From NCBI GenBank assembly GCA_030374765.1, contig JARGXX010000097.1, positions 558,001 through 622,000 on the forward strand: DNA of 64,000 bases. The letters run 5' to 3'. The translations under genes were made by a program, and so were the position numbers. Every line of letters starts with the position of its first letter. The stretch's first letter is position 1. The notes below the pieces were generated by a model, which did no database searches, had not been told where the DNA came from, and was given only the letters and a program-made list of their open reading frames with translations. Origin of the DNA: Agarophyton chilense. Lineage: Eukaryota; Rhodophyta; Florideophyceae; Gracilariales; Gracilariaceae. Shown one piece after another: positions 1-61,805 of the stretch.

Positions 1-1176
1 AAATGCTTGTGCAACCGTGAAAGCGGATATCTTCCGTAGAGGTACGGTCCGAACCAGTTTTGAGAAACGATCCGTGATAACGAGTAAAAACTTATGTCTA
101 CGTCGTGTGGTGAGGAGCTTACCGAGGATGTCAATGGCGACAAACTCGAGAGGAGCCCGTGCCGGGAATAGTTTCAACTTCGCTGAGTACTTGCGAAGTT
201 TCACCCGATTCTTAGCACATTCGGTACAAAACCGCACCGTTGCGTAGCAATCCACCGCCATGGCGGGCCAGTAGAAATTCCTTCGCAAAGTGAGGTAGAG
301 CTTCCGTCCACCGGCGTGTCCACCAAGTGTCGCATTGTGCGATAGATGCAAAACTCTAGAATGTAGAGTATGCGGCACCACGACTTGTAGGGATAACTGA
401 ACCGTCCTGACGAGGTATCCAAGATCGTTTACCTCGAAAGGGAGTTGTGCACCGCCATTAAGCCAGGCGCGAATCTTCGTACAGAAGGGGTCACCCTGCT
501 GTTCTCTGACCATCTCCTCCGGGGGTATCGGCACAAAATTACCCGGCGGGGGTTTCTCTGAATCGTCCGAGACGAGAAATGCGTCAATATCATCATCTGA
601 TTCCGGGCTTTCGTTCCATTTATCGTGTAACCAATCCGGGTCCCCCGGTGTTCCATCGTCTACGACGAAGCAAGGTATATCCTCGTCATCGACGGCTAGA
701 GCTTCCCCATTCGTGGGTAAACGCGAGAGCGCGTCCGCTTGCGCGTTCTGAGTGCCCTTCTTGTAGATCACTTCAAAGTCATATTCCGCGAGGCGGAGTC
801 TCCAACGCATTAAGCGGCCTGACGGCTCCGAGATGGTCATGAGCCATCGTAGGGACGAGTGATCCGTGTAAACGGTAAAGTGCACACCCATGAGGTAGGG
901 GCGGAGTGTAGAGAGGGCCCACACAACTGCAAGGCACTCCTTCTCCGACACGGAGTACTTCCGCTCGTGGACATTGAGCGAGCGTGACCAGTACCCAATG
1001 GGTTTGCGTTCTCCTTCGGGAGTAGTTTGAAAGAGTGCACAGCCTACCTGGTAGTCGCTAGAGTCCGTGTCCACGGAAAAAGGTAGTCCTGGTTTCGGTA
1101 ACGATAGAATCGGTGCTGATGTGACAGCCTCCCTAAGGGAGTTAAAATCATCCGTCTGGGCGGACGTAAAGGGGCC
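1..1176 (-). pseudogene. Pol of gypsy family A copy 1: RNase H and start of integrase
   Basis: After the frameshift an uninterrupted minus-strand frame runs to the window edge. RNase H shows DTDSSDYQVG, KECLAVVWALSTLRPYL and YTDHSSLRWL. The linker then ends in a segment LPFEVNDLGYLVRTV that is also found in the relative. The integrase zinc-binding region has a His pair (HLSHNATLGGHAGG) and a Cys pair (CCTEC), followed by the first catalytic Asp (FVAIDILG). The rest of integrase is outside the window. No stop codon interrupts these roughly 390 codons, so the only visible damage to Pol here is the single-base deletion at about 1177. Confidence 0.85.
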
Positions 1177-2786
1177 AATTTAGGTGGTTGACCTTTCCGC
1201 AGAAGCGCGCTCAAAGGGGCCGCGATTTCAGCGAAGTTAGGGATAAACCGTCGGTAGACGTTGACCAATCCTAGAAAGGAGCGCAGTTCCGTCTGGGTAG
1301 CGGGTTCTTTCGCCTTGCGAAGGGACCTCACTCGAGCTTCCTCGATCATTACACGTCCCGGACGGATAATGTGCCCGAGATACTTCACAGTATCGGTAAA
1401 GAACTCACATTTCCTCAGTTTGAGGGTTATTCCAGCATCACGTAGCGTTGTCAATATGTCCCTGACATGGGTGAGATGGTCATCCAGATTGTCTGAGAAT
1501 ACAATGATATCGTCCAAATAGACGAGGCAAGTACGCCACTTAAAGCGGGCCAACAAAATGTCGATAGCACGCTGAAAGGTAGCGGGAGCATTGGTTAGAC
1601 CAAAAGGCATCCATTTGAAACGGTAGACTCCCGAGTGACAGACAAACGCAGTCTTATCTTGGTCCTCCTCCCTAACGGGAACCTGCCAATATCCCCAATT
1701 GGCGTCCAAAGCCATGAACACGGTAGCAGTGCCGAGAGAGTCGGTGTACTCATCCATTCGTGGGATCGGGTACACGTCCTTGACGGTAACATCATTCAAG
1801 CGACGGTAGTCGATGCAAAAGCGCCAGGACCCATCGGGTTTCGGAGCCAGTACCACTGGGGATGCCCACGGCGACTGAGCCGGTTCGATCACTCCAGCTC
1901 GGAGCATTTTGTCCACTTGGAAATGTTCCTCTTCTCGGGCATTGGGGCCTGCCCTGTAAGGGTGTTCAGCCACCGGTCGGGTGTTCGGCAATAAATCTAT
2001 CCGGTGTTCCGTTGTATTTATCTCACCAAGAGAGCCATCCCACATTGTGGTAAACTCCCGTAACATCTCACGCAGACTTTCACGGTATGACTCCGGTACG
2101 TGACCGAGGTCGAGTTCATCGAGTTCTTTCACGAGGTCTACCCGGTCGTAACTCGTCGGAACGGGCTTCTTTTCTGTTTCGGCCGGTTCTGATTCCGAAT
2201 CGTTCGGTGATTGGACGGCAGTTTCCTCCCCCTTCTTAGAGTGAACGAGACCGAGGACTTCGGCAGCGGTCAGCCTAGTGGGGACCATCGCGGTGGGGTG
2301 AGGCATTACCGATCCAATAACTTGGTTTTTCACCAGTGACTGGGGGGTGGAGCCCAAATTGGCAACGAGCACGGTGAACGGCTTGTCTGGGACAATCTGC
2401 GCGACTCCATTCGCCACGGCGAGTTGATATCCATCGTACAGAGATGAGAGAGGCTGAATGACTCGTAAACCGTGTTTACGGGAAGTGACACGCACCCATA
2501 CTTGGGACTCTGGCGGGATTCGGACAGACGCAGCCACGCGGAGCTTGGTAGACTCCCGAGAAGCGGGTGGAGGTTCCTGCGCGGCAGGGAGCGGTACGTG
2601 CTTCTTGGAGGCACGCCGCAGCGGACGACGGACAATCGGAACCGACGAGCCGTCTTCCATCTCAACACGCTTTAAGCGGGGCCTTATGGCGTCAACGAAT
2701 CTGTCACAGAAGTCACATCCCATGATGATGGGGGCAGCCAATTTCCGGCATACAATAAAGTCGAGTTTCACCACGAAGGAGCCCAA
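1177..2786 (-). pseudogene. Pol of gypsy family A copy 1: protease tail and reverse transcriptase
   Basis: Starts inside the post-protease segment (GCDFCDRFV, also present in the complete element) and runs through a linker into RT, with FCIDYRRLND, FGLTNAPATFQRAID and the catalytic YLDD box all intact. Just upstream (2790-2930) the protease frame is recognisable but shifted, and its DTGA-type active site is gone. At about 1177 a single-base deletion throws the frame: the open frame continues to 1044 as nonsense, while RNase H continues in the neighbouring frame. Function in the family: copying element RNA into DNA. This copy cannot make a full Pol without a frameshift. Confidence 0.88.
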
Positions 2787-3041
2787 GCGAACGACGAGAG
2801 CGACGGTCCAACCGTTGACAACGGGTTGTTATTCGCGTCCGCGACGTCAGGCGCCACGCCAAGGCGGATCTGAGATGGCAAGGGCGGGGGCAGCAGCGAT
2901 TCCACGATGAAATTAGTACCATGGTTTCCTTCTCTTCTCACAGGCGCGGATCACACCTTGGGTGGCAGACGACCGTTTAGAACGGGATGAACGCCTGCGA
3001 TGGCCATCGTCAGAAGACGAATTTGACGAGTCCGACCCATT

Positions 3042-6841: not shown

Positions 6842-7330
6842 CAATAAGCGGCTTGAACAACTTAACCGTCAATCATATGTATCCAATTCCACGCGTGGAT
6901 GAGTACATCGACTCACTCGACACTGCTACCGTTTTTTCGGCTTTGGACGCCGATTGGAAATATGGGAAAGTTCCAGTCATAAAAGAGGACGAGGAGAAGA
7001 CTGCTTTGCATGTCATTCGGGACTCTACCGTTTCAAATGGATGACTTTTCGTCTGACCTATACCATCACTACTTTTCAACGTGATGTGGATATTCTAGAA
7101 GTCCGCATCAAGTGGTGCACCTTTATCGTCTATCTAAACGATATAATAGTTTTCCCAGATAATCTGGATGACCACCTGACGCATGTCAGGGACATTATGA
7201 GCACGTTAAGTGAAGCTGGAATAACTCTCATGTTAGAAAAATGTATCTTTTTTACAAATGCTGTAAATAATCTGGGTCAAAATATCCGTCCTGGACAAGT
7301 TCTGATCGTCAATTATGTCTGATCCCCAGT
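6842..7330 (+). pseudogene. Decayed RT, gypsy family A
   Basis: Fragments in two frames: MYPIPRVDEYIDSLDTATVF, then a shifted part equivalent to the FKWMPFGLTNA-FQRAIDIL block, then VYLNDIIVF in place of YLDD, and YLGHIIRPG degraded to NLGQNIRPG. The order and spacing match the RT of copies 1 and 2. The first catalytic Asp of the YLDD box is replaced (YLND). Non-functional. Confidence 0.8.
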
Positions 7331-7479
7331 GAGGAAGCTTGAGTGAAATCGCTTCGCCTAGCGAAAAAATACTATATATCAGAAAAAACTACACTCCTTT
7401 CTAGTAATTATTATTGTCTACCGACGGTTTATACCGAACTGAGCGGATATCGCCGAGCTCTTAAAAGATATTCTGAGGA

Positions 7480-7960
7480 AAGGTAAACAACCTAAGTTGA
7501 AACCTCTCACGTCGGTCCAGACAAATGCTTTTAATTAGGTTAGTGAGGCTGTCACATCACCACCGATCTTATTGTTACAAGAATCCGGATTATCGGTTGC
7601 AGTGGTCAAAATTTCTAGTCACTACAAATTAGGTTCTGTTCTCTTTCAGATAGCTTCCAGAGGAGAACAGAAACCCGTTGGGTATTGATCAAGTTCGTTG
7701 AATGTCCACGAACGCAACTATTTCATGTCGGAGGAAGAGTGTCTGGCCGTTATGTGGGTCCTCTCTACTCTCCGTCCCGATCTCATGGGTGTGCACGTTA
7801 CTCTCTACAAAGATCAAACCTCCTCACGACTTGTTTTAAGCATTTCGGAACCGTCAGACCTTTTAATGTATTGGAGACTTCGCGTATCAAAATATGACTT
7901 CCAAGTGATCTAAAAGAAGTGCACGCAAAATATGGCAGCGGACGCGCTATCATGTTTACC
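7480..7960 (+). pseudogene. Decayed RNase H, gypsy family A
   Basis: Recognisable blocks are PLTSVQTNAFN (connection), NVHERNYFMSEEECLAVMW, LSTLRPDLMGVHVTLYKDQ and MYWRLRVSKYDFQVI. Each aligns with the RNase H and tether of copies 1 and 2. It is scattered over two frames with stops. Confidence 0.75.
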
Positions 7961-8383
7961 TCAGAATGAAGAAGCTCTGGTACCCGAAGAAGAGAATATA
8001 CCTTGCTTGGTCGTATGCGATCCAGCACCAGACGAGCCAGATTGGATACAAAATACGTAGCGTGAAGACCCTCAATCAGATGCTGAATGGGTGTTGTCTC
8101 GTCGCAGATCGTCGATCGCACGCGCCGCTCGCGTTACACAGAGAATGGGCAGCAAAGATGAGTTCCGCCTCCTTCACGGTTACCCCCTGGACTGGCGTGG
8201 CAATCCGGTATTCTTTTATTGTAGGCACAGTACAATAGTTCAAAGTATTTGCTCTTCATTTTGAACTATATGTACAATAGTAGGCGTCCATGTTTGACGC
8301 TTAAAGCATTTGAGATGAGACACCGGCGGTGAGTTGGATTCACTCTGATTGTCCGATCTGGTCATCAATGGGACATTTTTTTC

Positions 8384-9650
8384 ATGTCTGACGAAACTGA
8401 GAAGCCCCCACCCGAAAATTTAGTACCGATACATCCGGAGGAGATGGTTGGAGAACAGCAAAGCGATCCTTTCTGTACGAACATAGTCGCCCATATTAAC
8501 GGTGGCGCACCACTCCCTTTCGAGATAAGTGAAATTGGATACCTCTTCAAAACGGTACAATCATCCCCACAAGTAGTGGTTTTTCATGCTCTACAGTCTA
8601 GAGAGTTGCACCTATCGCTATATGCGGATCTTGGTGAACACGCCAGTGGACTAGATATATAGCTCATTCTCATTTTGCGATGGAGCTTTTACTGGGCTGC
8701 TCTGGCTGTGGAGTGCTGAGCAAATTTGCGGTTCCACCACGAATGTGCTAAAATTCGCTTGAAAAAACGAAAATACTTATCGAAGTTGAAGCTTCTTCCA
8801 GCATGGGCTCTATTCGAATGTCTTGAAATCGACAGTCTCAGCCCGATACTTTCCAACCGAGGTAGAAACTCATTTGTACTCGTTAAGACACAACGTTTCT
8901 CGAATGTGGCTCGGTGGTACTCATAAAGAAGATAATCTCTTTCTCGGTGGAACAAGCTTTTGTGACCCACTGTTTATTTTTCTACGGCCCACCGGTTCAT
9001 GTTATGTCCGCTAACGAAAAATAATTCGCATCGCGATTCTTCGAGGACTTGTGTCGGATTTTCGACATAAATTTTTTTTTTACAACTACTTAGCTCCCCC
9101 CGTTTAGAGCACAAGCCGAGCAGTTCAACCAAACACTACACGCCTTTCTCCGTTCTTAACTGGCCAATTACCCCAAACTTTGGGATCTGTTTACTGACGC
9201 TTTAATGCTCGCGTACAATACGCAGCTATACCGTACAACGGGTTTGACTCCATTCTAATCAGTCTTGTCACACCCACCGCTCCCTATCACGTTCTAACAC
9301 ACTCCAACGCAGGTGGAATACCCTTCAGTGACGGATTATCTCCACAAGTGAAATCGGGACTGACAAAGCTGATTCCAGCTGCGGGTAGAGCGCTAGTCTT
9401 TGATCAAGCCGCCGACAAGCGTGATTTTGATTCTCGTCTACGCTCTACGGCACCACTGATAAAATTGGGTGACTATGTCCTAATCCTTAAGGAACACTCA
9501 AACCCCAAAAGGAGAAATACAACAAACTCTCGCATATCGCGGCCAGACCATATATTGTAAGCCATGTAAGAGACGATGCCATCGTGGTGGAAGTAGCAGA
9601 CGCTCAACAGCGTATTTCTGGCTAGCGCCTTATCATCACCTTCCCATCGC
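8384..9650 (+). pseudogene. Decayed integrase, gypsy family A
   Basis: 8384-8662 aligns with the RNase H to integrase linker (PFCTNIVAHINGGAPLPFE). 9110-9260 gives the third catalytic block and following helix (AEQFNQTLHAFLRS, then WDLFTDALMLAYNTQLYRTTG). 9348-9560 gives the C-terminal part with the spacing of the GPY/F region (KRDFDSRLR, GDYVLILKEHSNPKRR). Stops and frameshifts are throughout. Confidence 0.7.
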
Positions 9651-10452
9651 TCTTTGAACTACCAGATGAAACATTTAACAAGACCCTCAACCGTGGATAG
9701 TGTTCCGCGGCACACCTCAGTTGCTCAGCTCAGTTAAGTTGTGACAAGAGCCTCTGTCTTGCCACAATCTACTAGGGGACTATCTGATTTCCAGCTCTTG
9801 ACGGAAACTACCTAGAAAGGTCCCTTTGTAGCGCCAATGCGTGGTGTCTACCTTCGATTCCCTACTTCTTTCCCTACCGCTCCATCTGAAGAGGTGGGCG
9901 AGAACATTAAGGTAGAACCCGACAACGTCGTTAAGAGCGAGTCAGTCACGGAACACTCACAGGCAAAAAGCAAAAATTACTTGTTGCAAAGTGACATGGA
10001 GAACTTCAATTAGTACGCCGCGGCGCAAATGCTCCTTCGGGAGATACATTGCACCCACAATCCCGACCTTTAGGTGAAAGATACACTGATCGGAGTAAAC
10101 CTTTGGAAGCTGTAGTGTAACTCTAAAGCGTTTGAAATCACTGACAATGCCGCCACGCGAGCACTCATGTGAGGAGGCGGAATACGCCACGGCGCGGATC
10201 ATTGCGAGCCACCGGTTGGAACGCGCACATAAAAGAATGGCCCAGACCTCGGCAGATTTACCAATTAACGCAAAAGGCGGTCAACTTCCCGGTTTACGCC
10301 GCATACGAGCACAATCGAGTCCGTCGTCAATAACCTCAACGTCAGGATGAATACTAGCACATAAGCTCGTGAAGCCCGACACAGAACCTCATATTGGAGA
10401 GATTTCTGCGTTACAAAAACGGCTCAGCCGGAAGGTCTACGAGAAGTGATGT

Positions 10453-10593
10453 TTTATCGACCATATTGCGGAACATTCATAACAGCCGGATGGTTACATT
10501 CAGTGTCTTGTCCGTTGGTATTGCTAAAGTTCCAAAAAAAACTCGAATGAACCGATTGAGCATATCCCACATTCAAAAGTAAAGTGGTTTCAT
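10453..10593 (+). pseudogene. Decayed chromodomain at the pol C-terminus
   Basis: The frame from 10453 aligns residue by residue with the intact chromodomain of the complete element: FIDHIAEH for FVIDRIVRH, CLVRWY for YKVRWY, EPIEHIPHSKV for EPIEHIPSSKV. It has two in-frame stops. Chromodomains at integrase C-termini steer chromoviruses to chromatin marks. Its place just before the opposite-strand ORF shows the gene order is ancestral to the family. Confidence 0.72.
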
Positions 10594-10850: not shown

Positions 10851-12280
10851 TTACGGACTACGATGGATATCACCTGAATGGTTGCCTTGAAGAAGACTGA
10901 AAATCAAGGGGGCGCGCATCTCAGAAGCGCTACTCGCCATCCCCAGCTTGCGAAGGAATTGAAAGATAATTTTCGCCTGATCTGCCGGAGTGGCACCGGT
11001 CTCGCTTGAAACGGAGGAAACCCGACCAAAGACCCCCGCTGACGAAGCAGCATGTGTACCGCAACCTGCAATGGAAGAAGCAGCCCTCGTAAAGATACCA
11101 AAGTCCATATCTTTCATGACAGTGTTCACTGCGGTTTGTGGCTCCTCCATAGCATAGGGTTCAAGATTTCCAGCAGAATCTACCCTATCATTGGGTCCAT
11201 TTTCAAACATCGGATCCTCACAGTCAAAGACGTAATAATACTCGTCCCCGTCCACGAAACCGGTCGGATGACCCTCGGGGAAATACAGTAAAGCAAAGCG
11301 AAGCTCGTTAAGAATCTCCAAAGAGATCTCATATCCATCTCATGGGTTGAAATAGATGAAGTCGCCTGCGAGCGGAGTTTGGCGATCTGCGGACAGGTTC
11401 TGTGCCCAGCCCCTGGCCGCACGTTCAGTCTGTGAAAAAGAAAGTGAGGCCGAGTCAACCTGGTATATGAAATTGAGAAGTGCCCCACCTCTTGAGAGTT
11501 GTTTTCACCACCTACTGGGATACGCAATTCCACGGCACGAATACCAGCGCGAACACGTAATGGAATGAACCACTGTCGGTACTAGAAAATGAAAACTGCA
11601 GTGCGTATAGCCCAATCAATGACGACAACAAACGAAAGTCTGGACTAAGGATCCTGGAGGAGGTAGAATCTTCGGTGCGTGATGACCGGCATTAACGCAA
11701 TGTAGCAGCCTCAAGAAGCATCGAGATACGACCAAAGGGATGGAATGGGAACAAAGCGTTTACGTTACTTGGATGAGCGAATGAGTTCGAGCTCTACGTT
11801 TTGGTATGCCATCATATACCCAAACCGGGGTCGCGCTTTCCGCTCAAAGTTGATAATCGCCAACAAGTTCGTTCGTCCCAGTCGTCGCATGAAGCGGAAT
11901 TCCGCCCGAATGACCGGACGGACCCAGTATACGACTTCCTGGTGCACAAGTGGAAAGTTCCTCTACTGGAAGGTTTCCAAACACGCGAGGCGGTCAAGAT
12001 ACCCAATTTCACCTTAGGTGCGGTACAGCCTAACATCAGAGGCCAGACCATTGGGGATGGGATATTCGAAAAGATCCCGGCAAAGCCGTTGATGACAAAA
12101 GAGCAAAAAAGCTGCATGCTCGGAAGCTAAAGACTTGATCCCCCCACCACTTATTGTATGAACCGGAACCGCCACACAATTCTGCCAATCTCTCGAAATG
12201 GTTGCAAGGACCGGAATATTTACCGAGAGCATTCCGCTTCCAACGATGTATATCGCCAAAAGCGGATCATTACACACCGC
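10851..12280 (-). pseudogene. Decayed copy of the opposite-strand ORF of gypsy family A
   Basis: On the minus strand, 12277 to 10863 aligns along its length with the ORF at 13820-15547. Matched blocks include SDVRLYRT with FDVAYYRT, RPVIRAEFRFM with RPILRAEFRYL, RPRFGYMMAYQNVELELIR with SRFGFLVPYPHLELERIR, RFVPIPSLW with RFVPLPAWW, and GHPTGF followed by a DEY-Y acidic stretch in both. At least four stops and a frame change near 11350-11760 break it. Relative to its own element it is antisense and downstream of pol, exactly as in the complete copy. Function unknown. Protein-level similarity across heavily diverged DNA implies past selection on the protein. Confidence 0.75.
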
Positions 12281-12527
12281 AATTGGTTGGAATCACGGCG
12301 CGAAGCAGATCATAGATGCTTCGAGGGGGGGTTGAAGATCTACGAGCGGGTTATAAGAGGGCAACATCACAAGTGGATATTATCATACAGGAGCTAAGTC
12401 CGAGTTCACGACAATTACAACCGCCGCTGCAGTTACCACACTCCTCTACGGAAAGGAAACAAAACAAAGGCCCACGGAAAAGAATTCGGGGAAACACCAA
12501 CTTGGGGTGTTATTAGTGATCGGGGTT

Positions 12528-12693
12528 TGTTTACAGTTCCTGCGGTACTGGCAATGTGAAGTCATCCTTTACAGTTCTGTCCTGCACAACAGGCTGACTC
12601 GCTGTCCAATGACCCTTACGTACTGCCTTTAAGTATCGATCTGTGAGTGGTCAAGGGTGTGCATCTTTTCTACTTGGATCCTGAGGTACATAC
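12528..12693 (+). repeat. Probable 3' LTR (left piece) of the decayed family A element
   Basis: Lies after the opposite-strand ORF where the 3' LTR is expected. It may begin TGTTTACAG at 12528 after a G-rich stretch, and is interrupted by the complete element at 12694. The right piece would be 24441-24820, ending CTCCACTACA. Boundaries are inferred from TG...CA and position only. Confidence 0.4.
12689..12693. repeat. Target-site duplication CATAC (left)
   Basis: CATAC immediately before the left LTR; an identical CATAC follows the right LTR at 24436-24440. The perfect match fixes both element ends. Confidence 0.93.
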
Positions 12694-13609
12694 TGTGGAG
12701 CAAAACCCGGCGACGGGAAGTGCTCTCAAGGTGTTCGAAGCCTTGCTCCCTGGGGGAGGCCGACTCAGAGACAGAGCCCTCCGTTCCACCCGTAGTGTGG
12801 GGTGTAACTCCCACAGGGAATTCCGGCAGTACCGACGGAGGTGAGGGGTAGAAACCGTTGGATCGGGAATGGGTATGGGTATCCCAAAGAATGTGGGAAA
12901 ATCCGGCGAAGAGGAAAAACGGGGCGAGGGTCGGGCACTAACAAGCACCGGACCCAAGAACCAGAAAAGGGGCGAAACAACAAAAGAAACCCAATACAGG
13001 GGCGAAAACCTGTCCTCGAAAGGAAACACAAAAAGCACGCAACAAGTAAGCAGAACCCCCACGGGGTATCGTGCACGCAGGTCGTCTGAGCGGTCCCAAG
13101 GGGGTGGTTGCACGGAACCCAAACGTGGGCACTCTCCAAGTGGAGTCGTGTCCCTACGCAGGCGTTGCTAACCAGAGCCCGTTCCGGGTTGTAAGGCCGA
13201 AACGATGGCGACGAAGAACCTCTAAAGGTATCGAATACCAACCTTGGTTACCATTTACTCTGAGCTTCAGACTGTCAGATCTCATCTCCCTAAGTAGGGC
13301 CCACTAACTAAACTCTACAGTAGTGCACGCCTGCTCAGAGCCATACAGGTGGAGATCCCACTGTCAGGGCCCAAAAGTCCAACGTTCTAACAAATATCCG
13401 AAAATCGGTGCCAAAATTAAGCCACGTGTATCACGGGGCCAATCCAACCATGGGCCATCCGAATTTTCACTTTATAGGCGAACTCTAACCAGAAAACAGT
13501 GCCACCTCAGCACACCTTCGAGGGGATCATAGTCATAACCCTCGGAGGGTTCAATCCTCATTCTATGAGTTGCATCTTCAAGTATCCCCTAACTCGGCGT
13601 TGCTCTACA
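12694..13609 (-). repeat. 3' LTR of gypsy family A copy 2
   Basis: 916 bp, TGTGGAGCAAAA...TTGCTCTACA on the plus strand, about 96.6 percent identical to 23521-24435 by my alignment. On the minus strand a TATA-like TATAAAG lies at about 13475-13469. The 5' LTR has TATGAAG there. ORFs read across the LTR are not taken as genes. Confidence 0.95.
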
Positions 13610-13622
13610 TCTCCCCCTCTTT
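13610..13622 (-). other. Polypurine tract
   Basis: Minus-strand AAAGAGGGGGAGA directly upstream of the 3' LTR terminus (TG). Position and composition are those of the plus-strand DNA priming site of LTR elements. Confidence 0.85.
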
Positions 13623-13819
13623 AAGACGAGGAAGAACATTACGAGCCGCGGGTGTCTCGCTTTCCGGTTACTATATATACTTCTCTCCCAGTGGGGTCCT
13701 TCACCACTTCCGAGGATCGCCACAAAACCGGCACATCGGTACAACTTTCTTCTACTCCTCCGACTTTCGGCGATAAGCAACTTCTCGCAACAGCAGTCTC
13801 AACCAGCCCTCTCAAGGGA

Positions 13820-15547
13820 ATGAACCCATACGTCCTCAACCCACTCTCGGGACCATCGTCCTCCGCGCCGGCGGACAACGAAGCTCCCCAGCAGGGTGGA
13901 CATTTCTCCGGTTTGGATGCGGCTCCGTCAGGTACCGAACCTTCCGCCTCGGCGAGCAACCGACATCCTCAGGAGGATTTGGACATTAACGCGGTGGCGT
14001 GGAACTCGGCTAATGCGATGCCCTTGGTAGCAAACTCTAGAGGTTGAATCTCAAACGAATCCTTTCGAAGGTGGAGTCCCCTTACCGATCCGGTGATATA
14101 TTCCCGCGCTCCGTGGTTCCATCCGACAGCGGTTCGCGACGATGAGCTCATCGACTCCTACGTGGAGGACGGCTTATTGCCGGGTGGCCTACCTGTCGAG
14201 GTTGTACGTTCTCCCGATTGGAGGGCGCGGGTAGCCATAGAGCCTCAGTATCTATACCGTGGTAGCGGGGAGTCCCTGGACAAGGCGCGCGCAGCGATGG
14301 CGGCTCTGGCCTACCAGCGATAGGAGAGGTCACGCTTTGACCATCTGGTTCCCCCGGAGTACGGGTTCGATGTCGCCTATTACCGCACGTACGGTGAGGT
14401 CTCCTACGGGGATAACCTGGCAGCCTTTCCCGAAGCCGAGTTCCGCGGACCGGGTTTTCCTCTCCGAGAAGATATGCTCCAATGGAGTCGTCCCATCCTT
14501 CGGGCTGAATTCAGGTACCTTCAACGGCAGTTTACCCAGTATGGGTTCGATCGACGCGTGCGCTTCGAGCGCCGCTCGCGCTCCCGTTTCGGGTTCCTTG
14601 TCCCGTATCCTCACTTGGAACTGGAGCGTATCCGTAACACGACGAAGGTTGGGCGATTCGTGCCCCTTCCAGCTTGGTGGAGTAAGGTCGAGGTCCCCCG
14701 AGGGTGCTTTGCTGAACTGCCCCCATGCATCTACTATATCGGGTCTCGTTTGATGCACGACCCGAACTCGGGATACTGGGCCCTCGTTGCAGCCGATTGG
14801 GCAGCCCGCGTAGCGGCGCACCTCCTCTGGGATGCTCATTACCATTTCCGTATCTGGTTTATTCCTCCGATGCTACGGACCTTCATGCGTCAGATCGACC
14901 TTGTCCCAGCGTTGGGTTCGGCCAGCAGCGTGCAGGACCCGTATCCAATCTTGGACGTGATCGACAACACCCAATGGGATCGAGTTCCAGTGGAAAATCA
15001 GCCCGCAGGGGAAGGATCCGCGCGAGACAAGTCTCCTGGCCGGTACGATCCGGGCTCCGGTAACTGAGTCTGTTACAATCCCTTCGAAGGGATTCGCATC
15101 AGCGCGGCGCAAGCACGGGCGCTGATTGACTCGCCTCGACCGATGCCGGTGGGACACCCGACGGGGTTCATGTATACCGACGAATACGAGTACGAGCCTC
15201 CAGTAGACCTGGACGATCCAGCGTTGGATAACGACATGCCAGCTACTAGTGGAGTACTCCCTGTGGAGCCATCTGCACCCTTCCAACCAGTGGGAACGAC
15301 CTCAGCTGCGGCGGCGAATGCATCCGGTGGCGGTTCATCTGCTCCCCCCGGGTGGGGTGTGGACACCCTTGCGCAGGCGCCGGTTGCCACTCCGCAAGCG
15401 GATAGTGTGCGACAAGGCCTCGTTAACGCGGGCATTCCGATTCCCTCGGGTATGACGGATGTGAGCCAGATGTTGGCTTTCGCCTCGGCGTACCATCAGG
15501 GTCAGAATCCCAACGGTGGGGCGAGTCCCTCCTCGGGCTTTCCTTAG
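13820..15547 (+). pseudogene. Opposite-strand ORF of gypsy family A (unknown protein)
   Basis: A single plus-strand frame of about 575 codons from the ATG at 13820; the frame is open from 13625. It is interrupted only by TGA 14045-14047, TAG 14321-14323 and TGA 15065-15067. The N-terminus is Ser/Pro/Ala-rich. A middle part rich in Arg, Tyr and Trp (RPILRAEFRYLQRQF, RFVPLPAWWSKVEV) is followed by an acidic patch after GHPTGF and a Gly/Ser/Ala-rich tail. No known domain, signal peptide or membrane helix was recognised. It is convergent with pol, the two ends 440 bp apart. A diverged homologue lies in the same relative place at 12280-10851. Antisense extra ORFs are known in some plant gypsy elements such as Grande; this protein does not resemble anything I can name. 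Confidence 0.72.
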
Positions 15548-15986: not shown

Positions 15987-16226
15987 TCAGTGATAGGATA
16001 AAACCTTAGAACTCGGAATGTGCTCAATGGGTTCCACTGTATCCTCATCAGGCGAGAATCCGTACCATCGGACTTTGTAGCGGATTTCTCCCTCGGGGGT
16101 GTAGATGTGACGCACGATGCGATCGATAACGAATTCCTGCGGGTACACTTTTCCCTGTTCGGGCTTCTCGTCCATCTTGGAACTCTCTAGTTCCCTTGAG
16201 AGTGTCAACGTAGGGTCTAGACACAC
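15987..16226 (-). CDS. Chromodomain at the C-terminus of pol, gypsy family A copy 2
   Basis: A 79-aa open segment whose last 50 residues form a chromodomain: YPQEFVIDRIVRHI, then IRYKVRWYGFSPDEDTVEPI and EHIPSSKV. The aromatic and V-WYG positions of the fold are present. In chromoviruses this module recognises histone marks and directs integration. It is separated from integrase by about 1 kb of low-complexity, partly frame-broken sequence, so whether it is translated as one protein with integrase is uncertain. A degraded homologue is at 10453-10593. Confidence 0.82.
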   Translation of the reverse strand: MCLDPTLTLSRELESSKMDEKPEQGKVYPQEFVIDRIVRHIYTPEGEIRYKVRWYGFSPDEDTVEPIEHIPSSKVLSYH

Positions 16227-16459
16227 CCCGGTGGGTTCTTTTCCGTGTTGCGAGCGGGTATCAGCACTTCGTCCAAACGACGCCGAGTGGCCTGTGGGCT
16301 ACGTTGTAACTTCCGTCTACGGAGTCAAAACGGCCCAGTTTTGGGTTCTTCTTAAAGCGGAGATCTTCCCAATAACAGCGGTGTTCTTAGATTCCGTGAA
16401 GGTTGAGAAACCGCGACGCGGTAGCGTCTCCAATCTCAGAGGGGGGGTAAGACTTCAAC

Positions 16460-17275
16460 GTCAACCCGAGCTACGGGGACGAAGGTTGCTCTTGTGCAAC
16501 GCGCCGTGCGACGGAGGCGGTTTGCGCGACGGTTGGTCGTCAGAGCCTTTTGATTGTCTCGGTGCCATTCGACGTGTGCCACATAAATGCGCGGGCGCCG
16601 GTTGCCACTCCGCAAGCGGATGTGAGGTGGCGCTTTCGATAGGCGCTAGCACTCTCCTGAGCTGTCCCCGACGGGTCTCACTCATTTCTTTCCCATTCCT
16701 GAGGGTTCCAGTGTCTCCATAGGAGTTCCTATTCCCATTCCATAACGGAGAGCCAAATGTGGTCAACCTCATCGTGGAGATCTTCCCCGTGCGGGTCCGC
16801 TGACACAGCTCGTTACCGAGAAAGCGGGGTTTGAGTGTGCGACACCTCAGTGTCTCGTCCGCGGCGGCGGGTGATCGTCGGCTCTGTAGGCGTTCCGGGT
16901 GCGGAGTTCTCCACACGACTCTCCCTAGGCGGGGTTTCGTCATCTTTTCTGACTTCGTGCTCGGCTGGGTTGGCGGTGATGTCGCTACCCATACGCTGGG
17001 GTTGTGACTTCTCTGTCGCCGGCTCGGTCGGGCTCGCCGTCTCACTGTGAGAACTAGATTCCCTACTAGGGCGACTGGCTGACGCCGAAACATGGTCCTG
17101 CGAAGGAACTAAGTCCTCCGCCCCCTCCTTAGGCGGAGAGCCAGGAGGCTTGATTGCCTCCGGTGGGGGAGTAACTCTGTAAGAGTTCGTTGAATGGGCC
17201 CTTGAGGGAGCGGGCCCAGGTTCGGGAGTATCCGAAGTTTCCGGTAGGTCGGTTAAACCACGTTCCGGGTGCGGA
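16460..17275 (-). pseudogene. Disordered tether between integrase and chromodomain, frame-broken
   Basis: Past the GPY/F region the integrase frame closes at 17253. The neighbouring frame reads on from about 17275 to about 16820 as a Pro/Glu/Ser/Thr-rich stretch (for example TDLPETSDTPEPGPAPSRAH and SHSETASPTEPATEKSQ). This composition fits a linker and suggests a small indel near 17275. Beyond 16820 the frame has several stops before the chromodomain. The Arg-rich 210-codon frame over 17093-16461 is the frame shared with integrase, but its composition looks less protein-like. Confidence 0.5.
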
Positions 17276-18443
17276 AGTATAACGGGCGGTTGTTCGAATC
17301 TCCGCCTGACGGGTTAACTTCCGTTGAATCATCCCCTGTGGAGGGCGTTGGTGCCGACACCACTTCCACATTTGGGTTGGGCGCTCGTGTGATGCGGTCC
17401 CTGGAGATCCGTTCGTGGCGGTTAGCGATATCCAATACCACCGTGTCCGGGTCTACAGAAACCACACGATAGGGTCCGTCCACAATTGGCGAAAGCTTGT
17501 GCCTACGTTCCTTTTCAGGATTGTAGTATTCCTTTCGAAGGAAGACGAAGTCGTCGGGCTCCACCTGAGGTAGAGGTTTGCGAACCCGATTGTCAAAGTC
17601 CTTCTTGTAGGCGCGTTGAGCTTTGTCCATTGCTTTCGTGGCTATCGGCACCATCTTCGTAAGCCACTCCTTCCAGGCTTCTCGGTACAATCCCGGTGAT
17701 GGGTACGTCGACAGCGTCGGTTGAGCCTCGATGGCGACCGGCGGCGGTGTCCTCGACAGTACCAGTTCGAATGGGGATAACGATGTAACCCGATGTACCT
17801 GGGTGTTGTATGCACACGTGATAGCGTCTGTGTACAAGTCCCAATTTTTGGGGTGATCGGCAACATACGATCTCAAAGCGTTGAGTATCGTGCGGTTAAA
17901 CCTCTCCACCTGGCCATTCCCCTGAGGGTGATACGTAGTAACAAATAAATTCCTTACATCAAGGATTCGACATACATCCTGAAAGAACTTTGATGCGAAT
18001 TGCCCTCCGTTGCCGGATAACAACTGCACCGGCGGTCCATATACGAACACCCAATGGGTCACGAACGCTTGCGCGACGGTAGCGGCGGTGATCCGCTTCA
18101 GCCGCACAGTTCTCGTTAGCTTAGAGAATCTGTCAGAAATGACAAGCAGATACCGATGACCTCGGGGCGTCCTGATAAACTCCCCTAGGATGTCTATGGC
18201 CACGAATTCGAGTGGATCCCGTGCCGGGAACAGCGTCAACTTCTTAGAGTGCTTCCGAAGTTTGACGTCATTCTCGGCGCAATTGGCGCAGGCCCGTCTG
18301 ACGGCGTAACAATCGAATGCCATTGCCGGCCAGTAAAAGTCCCTTCTCAACGTGAGGTACAGTTTTCTTCCCCCGGGGTGGGCGCCAACCTTCACATAGT
18401 GAGTGAGGTGTAATACCCTCTGTTGTAGGGTGTGCGGCACCAA
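17253..18443 (-). pseudogene. Integrase of gypsy family A copy 2, second catalytic Asp replaced
   Basis: 396 aa in the same frame as the upstream RT ORF, separated from it by one TAG. The zinc-binding part has His 15/His 22 and Cys 52/Cys 55. Core: first Asp at 84 (FVAIDILGEF); the second block reads LLSGNGGQF with Gly 144 where SDNG is normal; the catalytic Glu at 180 is in HPQGNGQVERFNR. The C-terminal GPY/F module includes DGPYRVVSVDPDTVVLD. Loss of the second Asp of the DDE triad should abolish strand transfer. The enzyme would insert the cDNA into host DNA. Confidence 0.88.
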
Positions 18444-18506: not shown

Positions 18507-21260
18507 CTAAAATCCTTCGTTGAGGCGGGCCCGAATCCGTGTACAGAATGGGTCGAGCTGTTGCTCGCATATCATCTCCTCTGGAGAGATAGGTATAGAA
18601 GAGCCGGTCGGCGAAATCAGACTCTCGTTGACGAGTATATCGTTACAAACATCATCCGTCAGCGGTTGAGCCCCTCCCTCGAGGTCCGATACCATAAAGC
18701 ATGGGATGTCATCGTCCTCGTAGGGTTCCGTTTCCGCTGTGGTTCCCAAGCGGGATAGTGCATCAGCCTGAGTGTTCAGCTTCCCTTTCTTGTACAGGAC
18801 CTCAAAGTCGAATTCCGACAGTCGGAGACGCCAGCTCATAAGGCGGCCCGAGGGTTTGGAGATCTCCAGGAGCCAACGCAAGCATGCGTGGTCCGTATGG
18901 ACTTTGAAACGAGTACCAGTCAGATAGGGGCGAAGTGTAGCTAAGGCCCACACAACGGCTAAACATTCTTTCTCGGAGACCGAGTAGTTCCTTTCATGGA
19001 CATTCAGGGAACGTGACCAGTACCCAATAGGGTGACGTTCACCATCCTCAGAGGATTGGAACAGTGCACACCCTACTTGGTTTGCACTAGCATCGGTGTC
19101 CACTTCGTAAGGGAGCCCAGGATTGGGTAGAGCCAAGATTGGCGGTGATGTTACGGCATTCACCAGTGCCGTGAAGGCAGACGCTTCCGCGTCGCCAAAA
19201 GGTTCCAGTTCAACTGGTTGTCCCTTCGTCAGGAGCCTGTTGAGGGGGGTGGCAATATCCGCAAAGTTCGGGACGAATCGGCGATACAAGTTACACAGAC
19301 CTAAGAAGGATCGCAACTCCGTTTGAGTTTTCGGGTGTTTTGCTTCCTTCAAGGATTTCACTCGTACTTCATCGATTGAAAGCTGCCCGGGACGGATAAT
19401 ATGACCCAGGTACTTAAGCGAATCGGTGGAAAACTCGCACTTCTTGAGTTTCAAGGTGATTCCCGCGTCGCAGAGTATCTTCATTATGTCCCTGACGTGT
19501 TCGAGGTGGTCATCCAGGTTGTTGAAGAAGACCATAATGTCGTCTAAATACACTAGACACGTCCTCCACTTGAAGGGAGCCAACAGAATGTCTATCGCCC
19601 GTTGAAACGTTGCGGGTGCATTTGTCAACCCGAAAGGCATCCTCCGGAATCGGAAAAGTCCTTGATGACACACGAAAGCCGTTTTGTCTCGATCTTTCTC
19701 CCTAATAGGGACTTGCCAGTAGCCCGAATTGGCGTCGAGGTTAGAGAAAACAGTAGCGCTCCCAAGGGAGTCGATGTATTCGTCCATCCGAGGGATCGGG
19801 TACACATCCTTAATGGTTACCTCGTTCAGGCGTCTGTAATCGATGCAAAAACGCCACGATCCATCCGGTTTTGGAACTAACACCACTGGTGAGGACCAAG
19901 CGGACTGAGCAGGTTCAATTACGCCCGCTTTAAGCATCTTCTCCACCTGAGATTTCTCCTCTTCCCGAGCTTTCGGTCCAGCCCTGTAAGGGTGTTGGGC
20001 AATAGGCCGAGTGTTCGGTAGCAAGTCGATGCGGTGTTCTGTAATCCCAATAGTTCCAAGGGAACCATCCCACATGGGGGTAAATTCACGAAGCATGTGC
20101 CTCAGCTTCTCCCGATGAGATGCGGGTACATGGTTGAGATCCCATTTCTCCAATTCCTGAACAGGATCCGTCTGGTCTGCTCCTGTGATAGGGGCCGTAA
20201 CCTCCTGAGGTTTAAAGTGTTCAGCGTGTGGAGCTGCAGTCGTATGCTCACCTTCTTCCGCGATTTCGGCAGTGTCCTCCCCCTCCTTAGGGTCCGCCAC
20301 ACCAAGGACCTCTGCGATAGAGATCTTTGTAGGTACGACCGCATGCGGGTGTGGAAGAACAGAACCCAGGATCTGGTGTTTGACCAAATGCTGCGTTGTC
20401 TTTCCAAAGTTGGCTACCAAAACCTTGAAAGGTTTATCCGGTTCCACGGAGACAACCCCATTCGCAAGGGCGAGTTGACGCCGCGTATACAGAGAGGGGT
20501 TCGGTTGTACCACATGCACACCAATTTGCTTGGTAACAACTGTGACCCAAACCTGGGTTTCTGGCGGGATAGCCACTGACTTCGCAACCTTTACCCGTGT
20601 AGACACCGGGTCCTTCTTCACAGATTCCTGCGCGACAGGGAGCGGAACGCGTGTTCGCGCTGCTCCCTGTAAGGGTTTACGAACGATTGGGATCGTAGAC
20701 CCGTCTTCGAGTTCCACAGTTCTATTCCGAGGACGGATGGCTTCCACGAAGCGGTCGCAAAAGTCACAACCCAGTATGACTGGTGCTGCAAGTGACTTGC
20801 ATACAATAAACTCTAGCTGAACGAGATAGGAGCCTAACCTCACCATGAGGGAAATTGTACCCAGTGTCCGCAGCGGATTGTTGTTAGCATCGGGGATATC
20901 CAAACGTGGACCGGTACGAACTTGAACCCGGAGCAGCGGGGGTAACAATTCAACATGAATTAAGTTAGGAGCGGCTCCTGTATCCAGGACAGATATTTGA
21001 CGAACCATAAACTGGTTGGACAGGCCGAAGTCGGCGAATACTTTATAATTCCGCTTGGCCATTACCATAACTCGATCCGGAATATGGAGATTACGGGACC
21101 GTATCCACGGGCGACGGAGGACACTAAAGTATCCCGAGTTAACGTCGGTGTCAGCCGTTCTCCTTGAAAGGATAGTCACAGCTGGGGAGCGAAGCTGGAG
21201 CGCCTCAGGCGTCTTCAACTCCGGCTTAGAAGACGCCCCTCCCGCAGGGGAGACTCCCAA
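18507..21260 (-). CDS. Pol of gypsy family A copy 2: protease, RT, RNase H
   Basis: 917 aa in the -1 frame relative to gag and overlapping its stop. Protease active site LDTGAAPN at 92-99. RT about 445-610 with FCIDYRRLNE, FGLTNAPATFQRAID and catalytic YLDD 571-574. RNase H about 715-830 with Asp 721 in DTDAS, ECLAVVWALATLRPYL and HTDHACLRWL. It ends at TAG 18509-18507, where copy 1 has a Gln codon (CAA) at the aligned site, so this is a nonsense change and integrase lies beyond it in the same frame. Expression is probably as a Gag-Pol fusion by -1 frameshifting (see 21262-21275). Confidence 0.9.
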   Translation of the reverse strand: MGVSPAGGASSKPELKTPEALQLRSPAVTILSRRTADTDVNSGYFSVLRRPWIRSRNLHIPDRVMVMAKRNYKVFADFGLSNQFMVRQISVLDTGAAPNLIHVELLPPLLRVQVRTGPRLDIPDANNNPLRTLGTISLMVRLGSYLVQLEFIVCKSLAAPVILGCDFCDRFVEAIRPRNRTVELEDGSTIPIVRKPLQGAARTRVPLPVAQESVKKDPVSTRVKVAKSVAIPPETQVWVTVVTKQIGVHVVQPNPSLYTRRQLALANGVVSVEPDKPFKVLVANFGKTTQHLVKHQILGSVLPHPHAVVPTKISIAEVLGVADPKEGEDTAEIAEEGEHTTAAPHAEHFKPQEVTAPITGADQTDPVQELEKWDLNHVPASHREKLRHMLREFTPMWDGSLGTIGITEHRIDLLPNTRPIAQHPYRAGPKAREEEKSQVEKMLKAGVIEPAQSAWSSPVVLVPKPDGSWRFCIDYRRLNEVTIKDVYPIPRMDEYIDSLGSATVFSNLDANSGYWQVPIREKDRDKTAFVCHQGLFRFRRMPFGLTNAPATFQRAIDILLAPFKWRTCLVYLDDIMVFFNNLDDHLEHVRDIMKILCDAGITLKLKKCEFSTDSLKYLGHIIRPGQLSIDEVRVKSLKEAKHPKTQTELRSFLGLCNLYRRFVPNFADIATPLNRLLTKGQPVELEPFGDAEASAFTALVNAVTSPPILALPNPGLPYEVDTDASANQVGCALFQSSEDGERHPIGYWSRSLNVHERNYSVSEKECLAVVWALATLRPYLTGTRFKVHTDHACLRWLLEISKPSGRLMSWRLRLSEFDFEVLYKKGKLNTQADALSRLGTTAETEPYEDDDIPCFMVSDLEGGAQPLTDDVCNDILVNESLISPTGSSIPISPEEMICEQQLDPFCTRIRARLNEGF

Positions 21261-21261
21261 G

Positions 21262-21275
21262 TTTAGTTTTTCGAA
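21262..21275 (-). promoter_or_regulatory. Candidate -1 ribosomal frameshift site at the gag/pol junction
   Basis: The end of gag reads TCG AAA AAC TAA on the minus strand. The heptamer G AAA AAC fits the NNNWWWH style of slippery sites in its A-site half; a -1 slip gives GAA AAA CTA AAC TTG, which runs straight into the pol frame with no stop. The P-site re-pairing is imperfect (G for A). No pseudoknot was modelled. Confidence 0.5.
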
Positions 21276-22726
21276 GCGGACCCCACCGAATTCGGTGCAG
21301 CTGCCTCGGAGGGGACCGGTTGTTCCCCGTTCGCGGGTACAAGTTCTGTATCCCTGTCAGCAAGGTGAGCTCGGAGTATCCTTTGTTCCTCATAGGACCT
21401 ACTCCGGACTCGAGCTTTCTCCTCAGGGGTCAGAGCCTCGTACTGAGCGATAATTCGTGAACCCTCCCGCAGGGGAAATGTGCAGTCTGGTGCTTTGTGA
21501 CCACGGAGGTAACACAAATAGCAAATCAGCTCTGCCGAGTTCGGTTGTGGACGTGAATCCACGCGACGTGGTGCTGTATCCCTCCATCCGGGGCGAGAGA
21601 ACCGAGCAGCGGTATTCGCAAAAGGTAGCGATGCAGCTGGCACCCTCCGTCCTTGGGTATAGAGCGCAGGTTCTTCATCCGTAGTCGGAGCGGATGTCGA
21701 CGGCAACTCAGACGTACCCATAGATTCGGGGTTACTTCCCATGAAGTGAATGTTATCGTTGACCCCCACTGGTGCAGGGCCTCCTGCAAGTGACAAAGAC
21801 GAGTTACCTCCATCGGCGAGGAGTGCACGTGTCGGCCGACTCTTTCGGTTCTGCCGGGCACGGAGAGTATCCACCTCAGCCTGGGCGTACTGAACCAGTT
21901 CCAAGTAGGTCAGCTTGTGCTTCTCTTCCCGATGTCGGGCAACCAATGCCCTTATCGAGGGGTCCAAACCATCCACAAACATGGTGCATCTCTCGTAGGC
22001 GGGGAATACATTCCCGCATCGGTGAAACGCTTTATTCAAGCGAGTTGAATACACCGTTTCGGTTTCCATCGGCTTCTGCCGCGTATCCCTTAATGCAAGG
22101 ATTGCTTCTTGAATCGCATTTCCAGTAGCGTATGACCTCAAGAGGTACTGCACCGCTTCGGGCCAGCACGTGACTCCCCCTTCCGAGGCTCGGGATGATC
22201 TACGAACGGAGTTGAACTGGTATTCAGCCATCCCCTTTAAGAAATAGGGTAATGCAAGATACGCTTGCCCTTCACTCATACCGAGGATGTCAGCCTCCTG
22301 GACGAACCTCGCAAGGAAATCGAGCACCAGAATTGGGTCTGTTCCTGTGAACTCCCTCTTCTGTAGGGTGATGCTCAGCCTTTTGATGTAGTCCTTGACC
22401 TTACCCGTTCCGCGGGATGTTCGATCTCCCGAAGGGTTATCCAACCGGTAATAGCGGTACGATAGCAGCTTCCGATAGAGAGGATTCGTCGGCTTCAGCT
22501 CCTTTAATCCAAGGTGTTTCCTACCCTTCTTCCGGGTACGGATTGCCCCTTGACAGGTGTAAGTAGCCTTCGACCGAGTCGCCCGGGATGACCGGCGTCC
22601 ATCTTCACTATCCGAAGATTCGGAGGACGAACTCGATGACGAGCGATTGGGATTGGAATCCGATAAATCCTCTTGGAGGTGAACCCTCTTCTTGGACTGG
22701 CGGCGGTCCCGTTTAGCGGAGCGGTG
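21263..22726 (-). CDS. Gag of gypsy family A copy 2: capsid and CCHC knuckle part
   Basis: The frame continues from the N-terminal half without shift; the only barrier is the TAA at 22729-22727. It holds a Ser/Arg-rich linker, a helical capsid-like region (KREFTGTDPILVLDFLARFV to LSYLELVQYAQAEVDTLR-type sequence) and one zinc knuckle CYLCYLRGHKAPDC, with C-x2-C-x4-H-x4-C spacing. Gag packages the RNA in virus-like particles. It ends at TAA 21265-21263 inside the candidate slippery site. Confidence 0.85.
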   Translation of the reverse strand, partial: HRSAKRDRRQSKKRVHLQEDLSDSNPNRSSSSSSSESSDSEDGRRSSRATRSKATYTCQGAIRTRKKGRKHLGLKELKPTNPLYRKLLSYRYYRLDNPSGDRTSRGTGKVKDYIKRLSITLQKREFTGTDPILVLDFLARFVQEADILGMSEGQAYLALPYFLKGMAEYQFNSVRRSSRASEGGVTCWPEAVQYLLRSYATGNAIQEAILALRDTRQKPMETETVYSTRLNKAFHRCGNVFPAYERCTMFVDGLDPSIRALVARHREEKHKLTYLELVQYAQAEVDTLRARQNRKSRPTRALLADGGNSSLSLAGGPAPVGVNDNIHFMGSNPESMGTSELPSTSAPTTDEEPALYTQGRRVPAASLPFANTAARFSRPGWRDTAPRRVDSRPQPNSAELICYLCYLRGHKAPDCTFPLREGSRIIAQYEALTPEEKARVRSRSYEEQRILRAHLADRDTELVPANGEQPVPSEAAAPNSVGSASKN

Positions 22727-23293
22727 TTATTCGTCTTCCGAAACGTCGGGTTTATCCTTCGAGGCTTCTGTGTCTCCGTCCATATGGATAATGGCCTCGA
22801 GGGTGTCCAGCCGAGCTCGGAAGCGTTCCGCTTGCACGCGGTGTTCCTCCACGAGGCTCCGGTACTCCTGGATAAAGACCCCAGGGGTACCAAAGCTTTC
22901 CAAAAAGGAGTTCACATCCCTCCTCAGGGCACGAAGGTCATCGGCGACTCCCCGCACCGGGGCGTCCTCCACCTTGAGGCGGAGGGTAGTAGCCTCCTGA
23001 AGGAGCCCGACGTGAGCCGCGTTGGCGATATCAATTCGAGTCTCCAGGCGCTGTAATTCAGGGTCAGCCCGACTTCGGGGTGCTGCTGAGGGGGTCTCCA
23101 CCACTGGAGCTGGGCCCACAGCCACGACCTCTCGAGGACCTGAAACCACTGAGGGTGCTCTCCGAGTGTCCGGATCGATACCGGAATCGTTCCGACCTTC
23201 GGGAATTGAGCTCCTCGGCCTAGGCGGGGCCGGGGGCACTGAATCCGCTTGACGGTTCGATCCAGTCCTGGAACCACGGGTAGGCGGCGTCAT
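22727..23293 (-). CDS. Gag N-terminal part of gypsy family A copy 2
   Basis: 188 aa from ATG 23293, 227 nt inside the primer-binding site. Pro/Arg-rich start, then a helical region (RLETRIDIANAAHVGLLQEA through VQAERFRARLDTLEAII) and an acidic end. It ends at TAA 22729-22727, after which the same frame continues into the capsid part, so the stop is probably a nonsense mutation. The equivalent N-terminal ORF is present in copy 1 (3719-3042). Confidence 0.8.
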   Translation of the reverse strand: MTPPTRGSRTGSNRQADSVPPAPPRPRSSIPEGRNDSGIDPDTRRAPSVVSGPREVVAVGPAPVVETPSAAPRSRADPELQRLETRIDIANAAHVGLLQEATTLRLKVEDAPVRGVADDLRALRRDVNSFLESFGTPGVFIQEYRSLVEEHRVQAERFRARLDTLEAIIHMDGDTEASKDKPDVSEDE

Positions 23294-23520: not shown

Positions 23521-24435
23521 TGTGGAGCAAAACCCGGCGACGGGAAGTGCTCTCAAGGTGTTCGAAGCCTTGCTCCCTGGGGGAGGCAGACTCAGAGACA
23601 GAGCCCTCCGTTCCACCAGTAGTGTGGGGTGTAACTCCCACGGGGGATTCCGGCAGTACCGACGGAGGTGAGGGGTAGAAACCGTTGGATCGGGAATGGG
23701 TATGGGTATCCCAAAGAATGGGGGAAAATCCGGCGAAGAGAAAAAACGGGGCGAGGGTCGGGCACTAACAGGCACCGGACCCGAGAACCAGAAAAGGGGC
23801 GAAACAACAGAAGAAACCCAATACAGGGGCGAAAACCTGTCCTCGAAAGGAATCACAAAAAGCACGCAACAAGTAAGCAGAACCCCCACGGGGTATCGTG
23901 CACGCAGGTCGTCTGAGCGGTCCCAAGGGGGTGGTTGCACGGAACCCAAACGTGGGCACTCTCCAAGTGGAGTCGTGTCCCTACGCAGGCGTTGCTAACC
24001 AGAGCCCGTTCCGGGTTGTAAGGCCGAAACGATGGCGACGAAGAACCTCTAAAGGTATCGAAGACCAACCTTGGTTGTCATTTACTCTGAGCTCGGACTG
24101 TCAGATCTCGCCTCCCTAAGTAGGGCCCACTAACTAAACTCTACAGTAGTGCACACCTGCTCAGGGCCATACACGTGGAGATCCAACTGTCAGGGCCCAA
24201 AAGTCCAACGTTCTAACAAATATCCGAAAATCGGTGCCAAAATTAAGCCATGTGTATCACGGGGCCAATCCAACCATGGGCCATCCGAATTTTCACTTCA
24301 TAGGCGAACTTTAACCAAAAAACAGTGCCACCTCGGCACATCTTCGAGGGGATCATAGTCATAATCCTCGGAGGGCTCAATCCTCATTCTATGAGTTGCA
24401 TTTTCAAGTATCCCCTAACTGGGCGTTGCTCTACA
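23521..24435 (-). repeat. 5' LTR of gypsy family A copy 2
   Basis: 915 bp, partner of 12694-13609, with the same termini. About 30 substitutions and one 1-bp indel separate the two. Confidence 0.95.
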
Positions 24436-24440
24436 CATAC
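24436..24440. repeat. Target-site duplication CATAC (right)
   Basis: Partner of 12689-12693. Confidence 0.93.
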
Positions 24441-57299: not shown

Positions 57300-57544
57300 G
57301 TCAAAGAAGGCGATTGAAGAATAGAACAAAAGAAGCCATTGAAAGAAGTAACCGAATGGTAAGGAACAGAGCATTGGAGAAGTCCGAATGAAGATCGATC
57401 TTCTCGCGATCCTTGTTCCCATGTGGAACCAGTCGGCATTTAAGTTCCATCAAATCACTCTGACCTTCTTGTTTTCTGACGACGAAGTGATGTGATGATA
57501 TCCGGTTTACGTTCTTGGGAAGAGAACGTACTGACACTGGGCGA
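57300..57544 (-). pseudogene. RT start of a decayed copia pol (continues 62834-61984)
   Basis: Reads VSVRSLPKNVNRISSHHFVV, then LMELKCRLVPHGNKDREKID and IRLLLSMASF, the first RT blocks of a copia lineage different from the inserted element. The sequence joins directly to 61984 once the insertion and one GGCGA copy are removed. It continues with more decay toward 57080. Confidence 0.75.
57540..57544. repeat. Target-site duplication GGCGA (left)
   Basis: Identical to 61979-61983; fixes the ends of the inserted copia element. Confidence 0.93.
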
Positions 57545-57717
57545 TGTTGGCAGTAGTAACTTCCATGGAGGAAGCCGTTCACTCGGTCTTGTCCTTTACT
57601 TATAGTGGTGCTCCTGTGCACGGTTTGTCTACTGATATCGGAGGGAAACTAGTCGATAACGCCCGGGGGTGACGATGCTTACTTGGCCTACCGATCTTAC
57701 TTGGCCTACCGATAACA
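57545..57717 (-). repeat. 3' LTR of the complete copia element
   Basis: 173 bp, TGTTGGCAG...GATAACA. It contains an 18-bp tandem duplication, CTTACTTGGCCTACCGAT, at 57678-57695 and 57696-57713. Confidence 0.95.
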
Positions 57718-61801: not shown

Positions 61802-61805
61802 CAGA

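Follow-up and report, generated by a model that had tools for sequence, protein, structure and literature searches.

A retrotransposon of the red alga Agarophyton chilense carries a long reading frame on the strand opposite to pol, and the question raised by this locus is whether that frame is a gene of the element and, if so, of what kind. The element, here named family A, lies in a window of 64,000 nucleotides (the whole stretch of DNA analysed, positions 558001-622000 of contig JARGXX010000097.1, hereafter C97) in a genome of 79.8 Mb and 135 contigs. We think it highly probable that the frame is a selected protein-coding gene of the element and favor, with moderate confidence, the view that it is an accessory gene, antisense and convergent to pol, of chromodomain Ty3/Gypsy retrotransposons in red algae. 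The family A element comprises the following features (LTR, long terminal repeat; ORF, open reading frame; RT, reverse transcriptase):

12689..12693: left target-site duplication, CATAC (read directly)
12694..13609, minus strand: 3' LTR (3' relative to pol), with TG...CA ends and 96.6% identity to the other LTR
13610..13623, minus strand: purine-rich tract adjoining the 3' LTR (read directly), which probably serves as polypurine tract
13691..15547, plus strand: antisense accessory ORF, 618 codons in open copies; the window copy has no first-start ATG and three internal stops
15987..16298, minus strand: open piece with the chromodomain (Pfam PF00385, E 3.4e-8)
17253..18443, minus strand: integrase ORF (Pfam Integrase_H2C2, rve)
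18507..21260, minus strand: RT and RNase H ORF (Pfam RVT_1, RT_RNaseH)
21263..22444, minus strand: gag-like ORF (Pfam Retrotrans_gag, E 1.4e-4, 22.5 bits, under the family cut-off of 24.1)
22727..23293, minus strand: additional sense ORF upstream of gag, 188 codons, 32% identical over 174 columns to window 3677-3198
23521..24435, minus strand: 5' LTR, direct-repeat partner of 12694-13609
24436..24440: right target-site duplication, CATAC (read directly)

Since the LTR pair has TG/CA ends and CATAC stands on both flanks, the family A element is one complete 11.7-kb insertion with a chromodomain. The order of RT, RNase H, integrase and, downstream, the chromodomain is the Ty3/Gypsy chromovirus-type layout, as read from Pfam, with LTRs and target-site duplication checked in the window element only. 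Judged by domain order, chromodomain and LTRs, the host element is probably of the Ty3/Gypsy chromovirus type, and the antisense frame sits between its 3' LTR and its chromodomain. The Pfam scan of the sense ORF at 22727-23293 returned no family above cut-off. As to the chromodomain itself, it is in an open piece of its own, separated from the integrase by stops (15987-16298; loci L001-L050), and this piece is exactly 120 codons long in 29 of the 37 loci with the searched motif, some loci being the same copy twice; such a separate piece suggests that splicing or frameshifting joins it to pol.

The antisense frame recurs in many copies of the element. A DNA search of the genome, in which the best 40 of 491 candidates were scored, yielded copies at 97-98% identity besides the window's own, and a protein search with P0002, a relative from outside this genome, gave at least 75 family A matches (best 75 of 1893 candidates scored), all copy counts being lower bounds. 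From 50 excised loci we obtained 43 distinct family A copies, that of the window included, which are a best-scoring and non-random sample. The 618-codon frame was fully open in 19 of them, the final stop was TAG in all 43, and the first ATG (13691) and the second (13820) were present in 41 and 40, respectively. An earlier note on this DNA had proposed a long ORF at 13820-15547, but the window copy is interrupted by its three stops, open frames occurring in other copies, and most copies begin at 13691. In 1000 dinucleotide shuffles of a 2010-base region of one open copy, the longest methionine-to-stop run had a median of 124 codons, a 95th percentile of 202 and a maximum of 336, as compared with the 618 observed. 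All 43 copies had an LTR end upstream in the same orientation and, on the opposite strand, a chromodomain 401-505 bases beyond the ORF, a placement that is no census of the element because the copies were found through the ORF itself; the integrase was at the expected distance in 8 of the 10 copies checked.

At least one in-frame stop was present in 24 of the 43 copies. Twenty-three of the 27 stop positions were private to one copy, and pairs of copies with one of the other four in common were 0.963-0.977 identical, as compared with 0.973 on average over all pairs. Considering that sharers were no more alike than average, independent hits fit better than inheritance, and the stops look like such hits. 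Because they are mostly private, an open frame was most likely present in the source of every broken copy sampled, which fits a gene needed by the element.

An older element in mirror orientation spans 6.85-12.5 kb of the window in the order RT, integrase, chromodomain and antisense gene:

6853..8506, plus strand: RT/RNase H remnant (sequence match)
8576..9619, plus strand: integrase remnant (sequence match)
10432..10593, plus strand: chromodomain remnant (48% over 54 amino acids)
10872..12514, minus strand: decayed antisense gene (protein-to-DNA matches to the family B protein and P0001)

A DNA search with this older antisense region (best 40 of 151 candidates scored) gave matches mostly at 66-72% identity, and one of the six loci cut out of them (L054, contig C135) had an intact antisense frame of 566 codons, or 644 from the first ATG. 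We named this type of lineage family B, and its flanks were read in one copy. In L054, a chromodomain about 190 bases beyond the antisense ORF is followed by the integrase, both on the opposite strand. Family B has at least 77 matches in the genome (77 of 1998 candidates scored), 30 of them without internal stop, some partial. The order of LTR edge, antisense gene, chromodomain on the opposite strand, integrase and RT is found in family A, in one family B copy and, without the LTR edge, in the older element. When the open relative P0001 was used as tblastn query, window 13691-15544 (+) was matched at 94% and two pieces of 12301-10938 (-) at 34% and 29%, while the family B protein matched two pieces of 12514-10872 (-) at 50% and 36%. 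The earlier note was therefore right that both regions carry, opposite to pol, a long frame of one protein family, and the motifs it had cited (RPxxRAEFRxx, GHPTGF and an acidic stretch) are all in both. Its assignment of both elements to family A has to be revised, as the older one resembles family B (49.7% over the best stretch) more than family A (34%). The older copy is stop-ridden as described, but the window's family A copy is broken too.

The strongest evidence for purifying selection comes from the codon positions compared between lineages. DNA-only alignments, built without protein guidance, gave identities at codon positions 1, 2 and 3 of 0.71, 0.72 and 0.46 between families A and B (470 bases), and of 0.67-0.75, 0.75-0.83 and 0.50-0.55 between family B and five older copies; in the pol control the values were 0.74, 0.84 and 0.42. 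Of the antisense comparisons, nine could be aligned, each with its lowest identity at the third position, and two involving family A failed to align. Within family A, the pooled pairwise ratio of nonsynonymous to synonymous substitution rates (dN/dS) was 0.58 in open copies (n=19), 0.74 in broken ones and 0.66 overall (n=43; interval 0.52-0.83), whereas the shifted frames gave 0.92 (0.78-1.11) and 1.08 (0.90-1.34) in all 43 copies and 1.01 and 1.05 in the 19 open ones. The integrase gave 0.56 (0.40-0.82) in nine sequences from the same copies, in which 11 antisense sequences gave 0.63 (0.49-0.86), and family B gave 0.69 (0.54-0.93) in 13 sequences, with 0.89 and 0.91 in its shifted frames. A dN/dS near 1, named beforehand as the value that would speak against selection, was thus a property of the shifted frames, and these sequence comparisons support purifying selection on the antisense protein, as its similarity between the two regions had first been taken to imply.

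A search of 5.8 billion proteins returned one relative in the first pass and six by profile search, namely P0002 (49%), a Gracilariopsis chorda protein and four others; repeating the profile search added none. A red-algal host is indicated by this G. chorda relative and by contig C39, on which 14 of 15 phycobilisome-family matches lie. Seven other family proteins are 28-51% identical to P0002, whose best match in the present genome is at 52%. In the tree, family A grouped with P0002 and not with family B of its own genome (support 100/99), so that, barring horizontal transfer, the divergence of the A and B lineages probably predates the split between the sources of family A and P0002. Most of the invariant positions hold Arg, Glu, Asp, Gly, Pro or aromatic residues. 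As modelled, the protein would have an N-terminal part of low confidence that is probably disordered, a core (about residues 100-440), helical for the most part, with many invariant Arg, Glu and Trp residues, and a tail that is acidic (isoelectric point 4.05-4.93 in four proteins). Searches of Pfam, PHROGs, NCBIfam and PDB gave no significant match, in agreement with the initial statement that the protein belongs to no recognised family, and neither did sequence-to-structure and fold searches with a weak model.

Could the frame be open simply because the sense strand is under coding constraint? The window copy does have a sense-strand open stretch of 171 codons (14330-14845), and among the copies checked, such stretches reach 180 codons in family A and range from 251 to 298 in family B. 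However, these stretches run in the sense frame that places its third position on the first position of the antisense codons, and between lineages that base is not the most variable one. The sense frame aligned with the variable third positions is non-coding, with 19-21 stops across the gene in each of the nine copies checked. As the antisense frame, moreover, overlaps neither the integrase ORF nor the chromodomain and is most variable at its own third codon position, we find this explanation, already raised in the earlier note, hardly conceivable. It is also very unlikely that an independent mobile element or host gene fragment was inserted once and then carried passively; there are no known relatives accounting for the origin of the gene, as such an insert would have it, but family A, family B and the older element agree in position and orientation, and the constraint is close to that of the integrase.

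The location between pol and the 3' LTR is the site of env-like genes in plants (PMC7264820), and would suit a structural or envelope-like protein for particle formation or spread. We consider such a product quite improbable, since the gene is antisense to pol, there is no clear transmembrane segment in a crude hydropathy scan (highest 19-residue value 0.93-1.57 in five of six proteins; P0006 peaks at 2.15, near the N-terminus and not within the conserved core), and no fold match to viral proteins was obtained with the weak model. Somewhat less improbable, although still unlikely, is that antisense RNA and not protein is functional, convergent transcription giving double-stranded RNA that limits copy number, as raised for plant elements by Vicient and Casacuberta (PMC7264820). 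Genomic RNA must cross the antisense gene, so that any antisense transcript would be complementary to it, but pairing alone does not account for an open frame of 566-644 codons, the third-position variability between lineages or a dN/dS below 1; antisense RNA may act in addition to the protein.

Several results weigh against a selected gene with a regulatory product. In family A, the interval of the true frame (0.52-0.83) reaches slightly into that of the first shifted frame (0.78-1.11), singletons are neutral (observed/expected ratio of nonsynonymous to synonymous changes, N/S, 0.93), the signal is confined to 85 shared sites (N/S 0.73), stops shared between copies show no clear depletion (3 observed, 3.7 expected), and one reverse frame, whose third positions coincide, gave 0.61 on shared sites. 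Because of this last value and the undepleted stop alleles, the split by allele frequency is weak evidence, and the within-family signal of selection is modest. In family B, the dN/dS interval overlaps the shifted-frame values and the 13 copies were all picked without internal stops, which makes this ratio, taken alone, only suggestive of selection. A recent burst from few open masters would give the same pattern of private stops, and two of the ten copies checked gave no integrase match at the expected place. A candidate TATA-like box at 13672 reads TATACATA in only 18 of 43 copies, and none was seen by eye in one printed family B sequence. Transcript and protein are predicted from sequence, and the domain and fold searches gave no backing for a regulatory role.

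At its left edge, the window contains one further feature of this group:

1..2914, minus strand: pol of another element, family B (97% identity to family B pol over positions 1-1176)

A family B antisense copy with one internal stop lies outside the window at C97:553583-555268 and is probably the antisense gene of the element whose pol crosses this edge. The family A element is inserted in mirror orientation (12689-12694), about 180 bases away from where the antisense gene of the older element starts, and locus L057 has, at 25-186 and on the other strand, a second chromodomain that is about 0.9-1.1 kb away from a family B antisense ORF; these two cases indicate that nesting among these elements may be common. 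Two direct repeats of 175 bases, 98% identical and 4.3 kb apart (57543-57717 and 61804-61978), could represent the LTR pair of a small, young element.

Additional antisense genes in this location have been described in Grande, Retand/TRP28 and the fungal Boty, those of Grande-type plant elements having been mentioned in the earlier note, and what appears to be new is the protein family and its red-algal chromodomain host. TRP28 of plant Retand elements is likewise antisense, located between pol and the 3' LTR, conserved in its lineage and proposed to be regulatory; however, Retand belongs to a non-chromovirus lineage of flowering plants (PMC11963269), whereas the present element includes a chromodomain and comes from a red alga. 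Pfam TRP28 (PF04195) was unmatched in the eight proteins scanned (P0001 at E up to 10, P0002-P0008 at E up to 1), which sets the families apart as far as sequence profiles show. Maize Grande gene23 and the rice RIRE2 antisense ORF have the same position and orientation (PMC7264820) but plant hosts, and were compared in sequence through Pfam scans alone. A promoter upstream of gene23 drives its transcription and the product is reported to be nuclear (PMC7264820), TRP28 is predicted to bind DNA (PMC11963269), and a regulatory role has been proposed for the plant antisense genes partly for these reasons. The brtn gene of Boty in Botrytis is an antisense additional retrotransposon gene outside plants (PMC7264820; PMC8365987). 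Its host is a fungus, and it is likened to the present gene by description only. The antisense gene HBZ of human T-lymphotropic virus 1 (HTLV-1) is that of an animal retrovirus and offers an analogy of layout only. The HTLV antisense promoter is inside the 3' LTR (PMC7264820; PMC11963269). Chromoviruses occur even in red algae (PMC3605345), and among the matches listed in our literature search, the titles and abstract openings described no antisense ORF in red-algal LTR elements. In the reviews consulted, antisense extra genes of LTR elements have no established function (PMC7264820; PMC11963269).

For the antisense accessory gene described here, a separate transcript would start in or next to the 3' LTR, given that the frame begins about 80 nucleotides from the LTR edge in family A and, in L054 of family B, the first ATG is about 35 nucleotides from a putative edge. 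The placement of the gene and its persistence argue that it serves the element in some way. By analogy with the role proposed for plant antisense products (Grande GENE23, TRP28 proteins), the protein might act in trans to regulate or assist expression or integration of the element, a possibility that we advance tentatively. The antisense mRNA could also pair with genomic RNA, which runs through the antisense gene, and feed silencing. A broader proposal, that red-algal chromoviruses evolved a dedicated antisense gene independently of plants, fungi and retroviruses, that its new protein family controls copy number or integration, and that antisense regulators are recurrent in LTR elements, is more doubtful.

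If the reading as an antisense accessory gene is true, a further family at the same position, without detectable relation to TRP28, would mean that this layout arose or persisted repeatedly and is useful to the element. With at least 75 family A and at least 77 family B matches in one genome, many of them open, the question is directly testable by RNA and protein work. That the frame was kept readable in separate lineages suggests its use by the element or in the control of the element.

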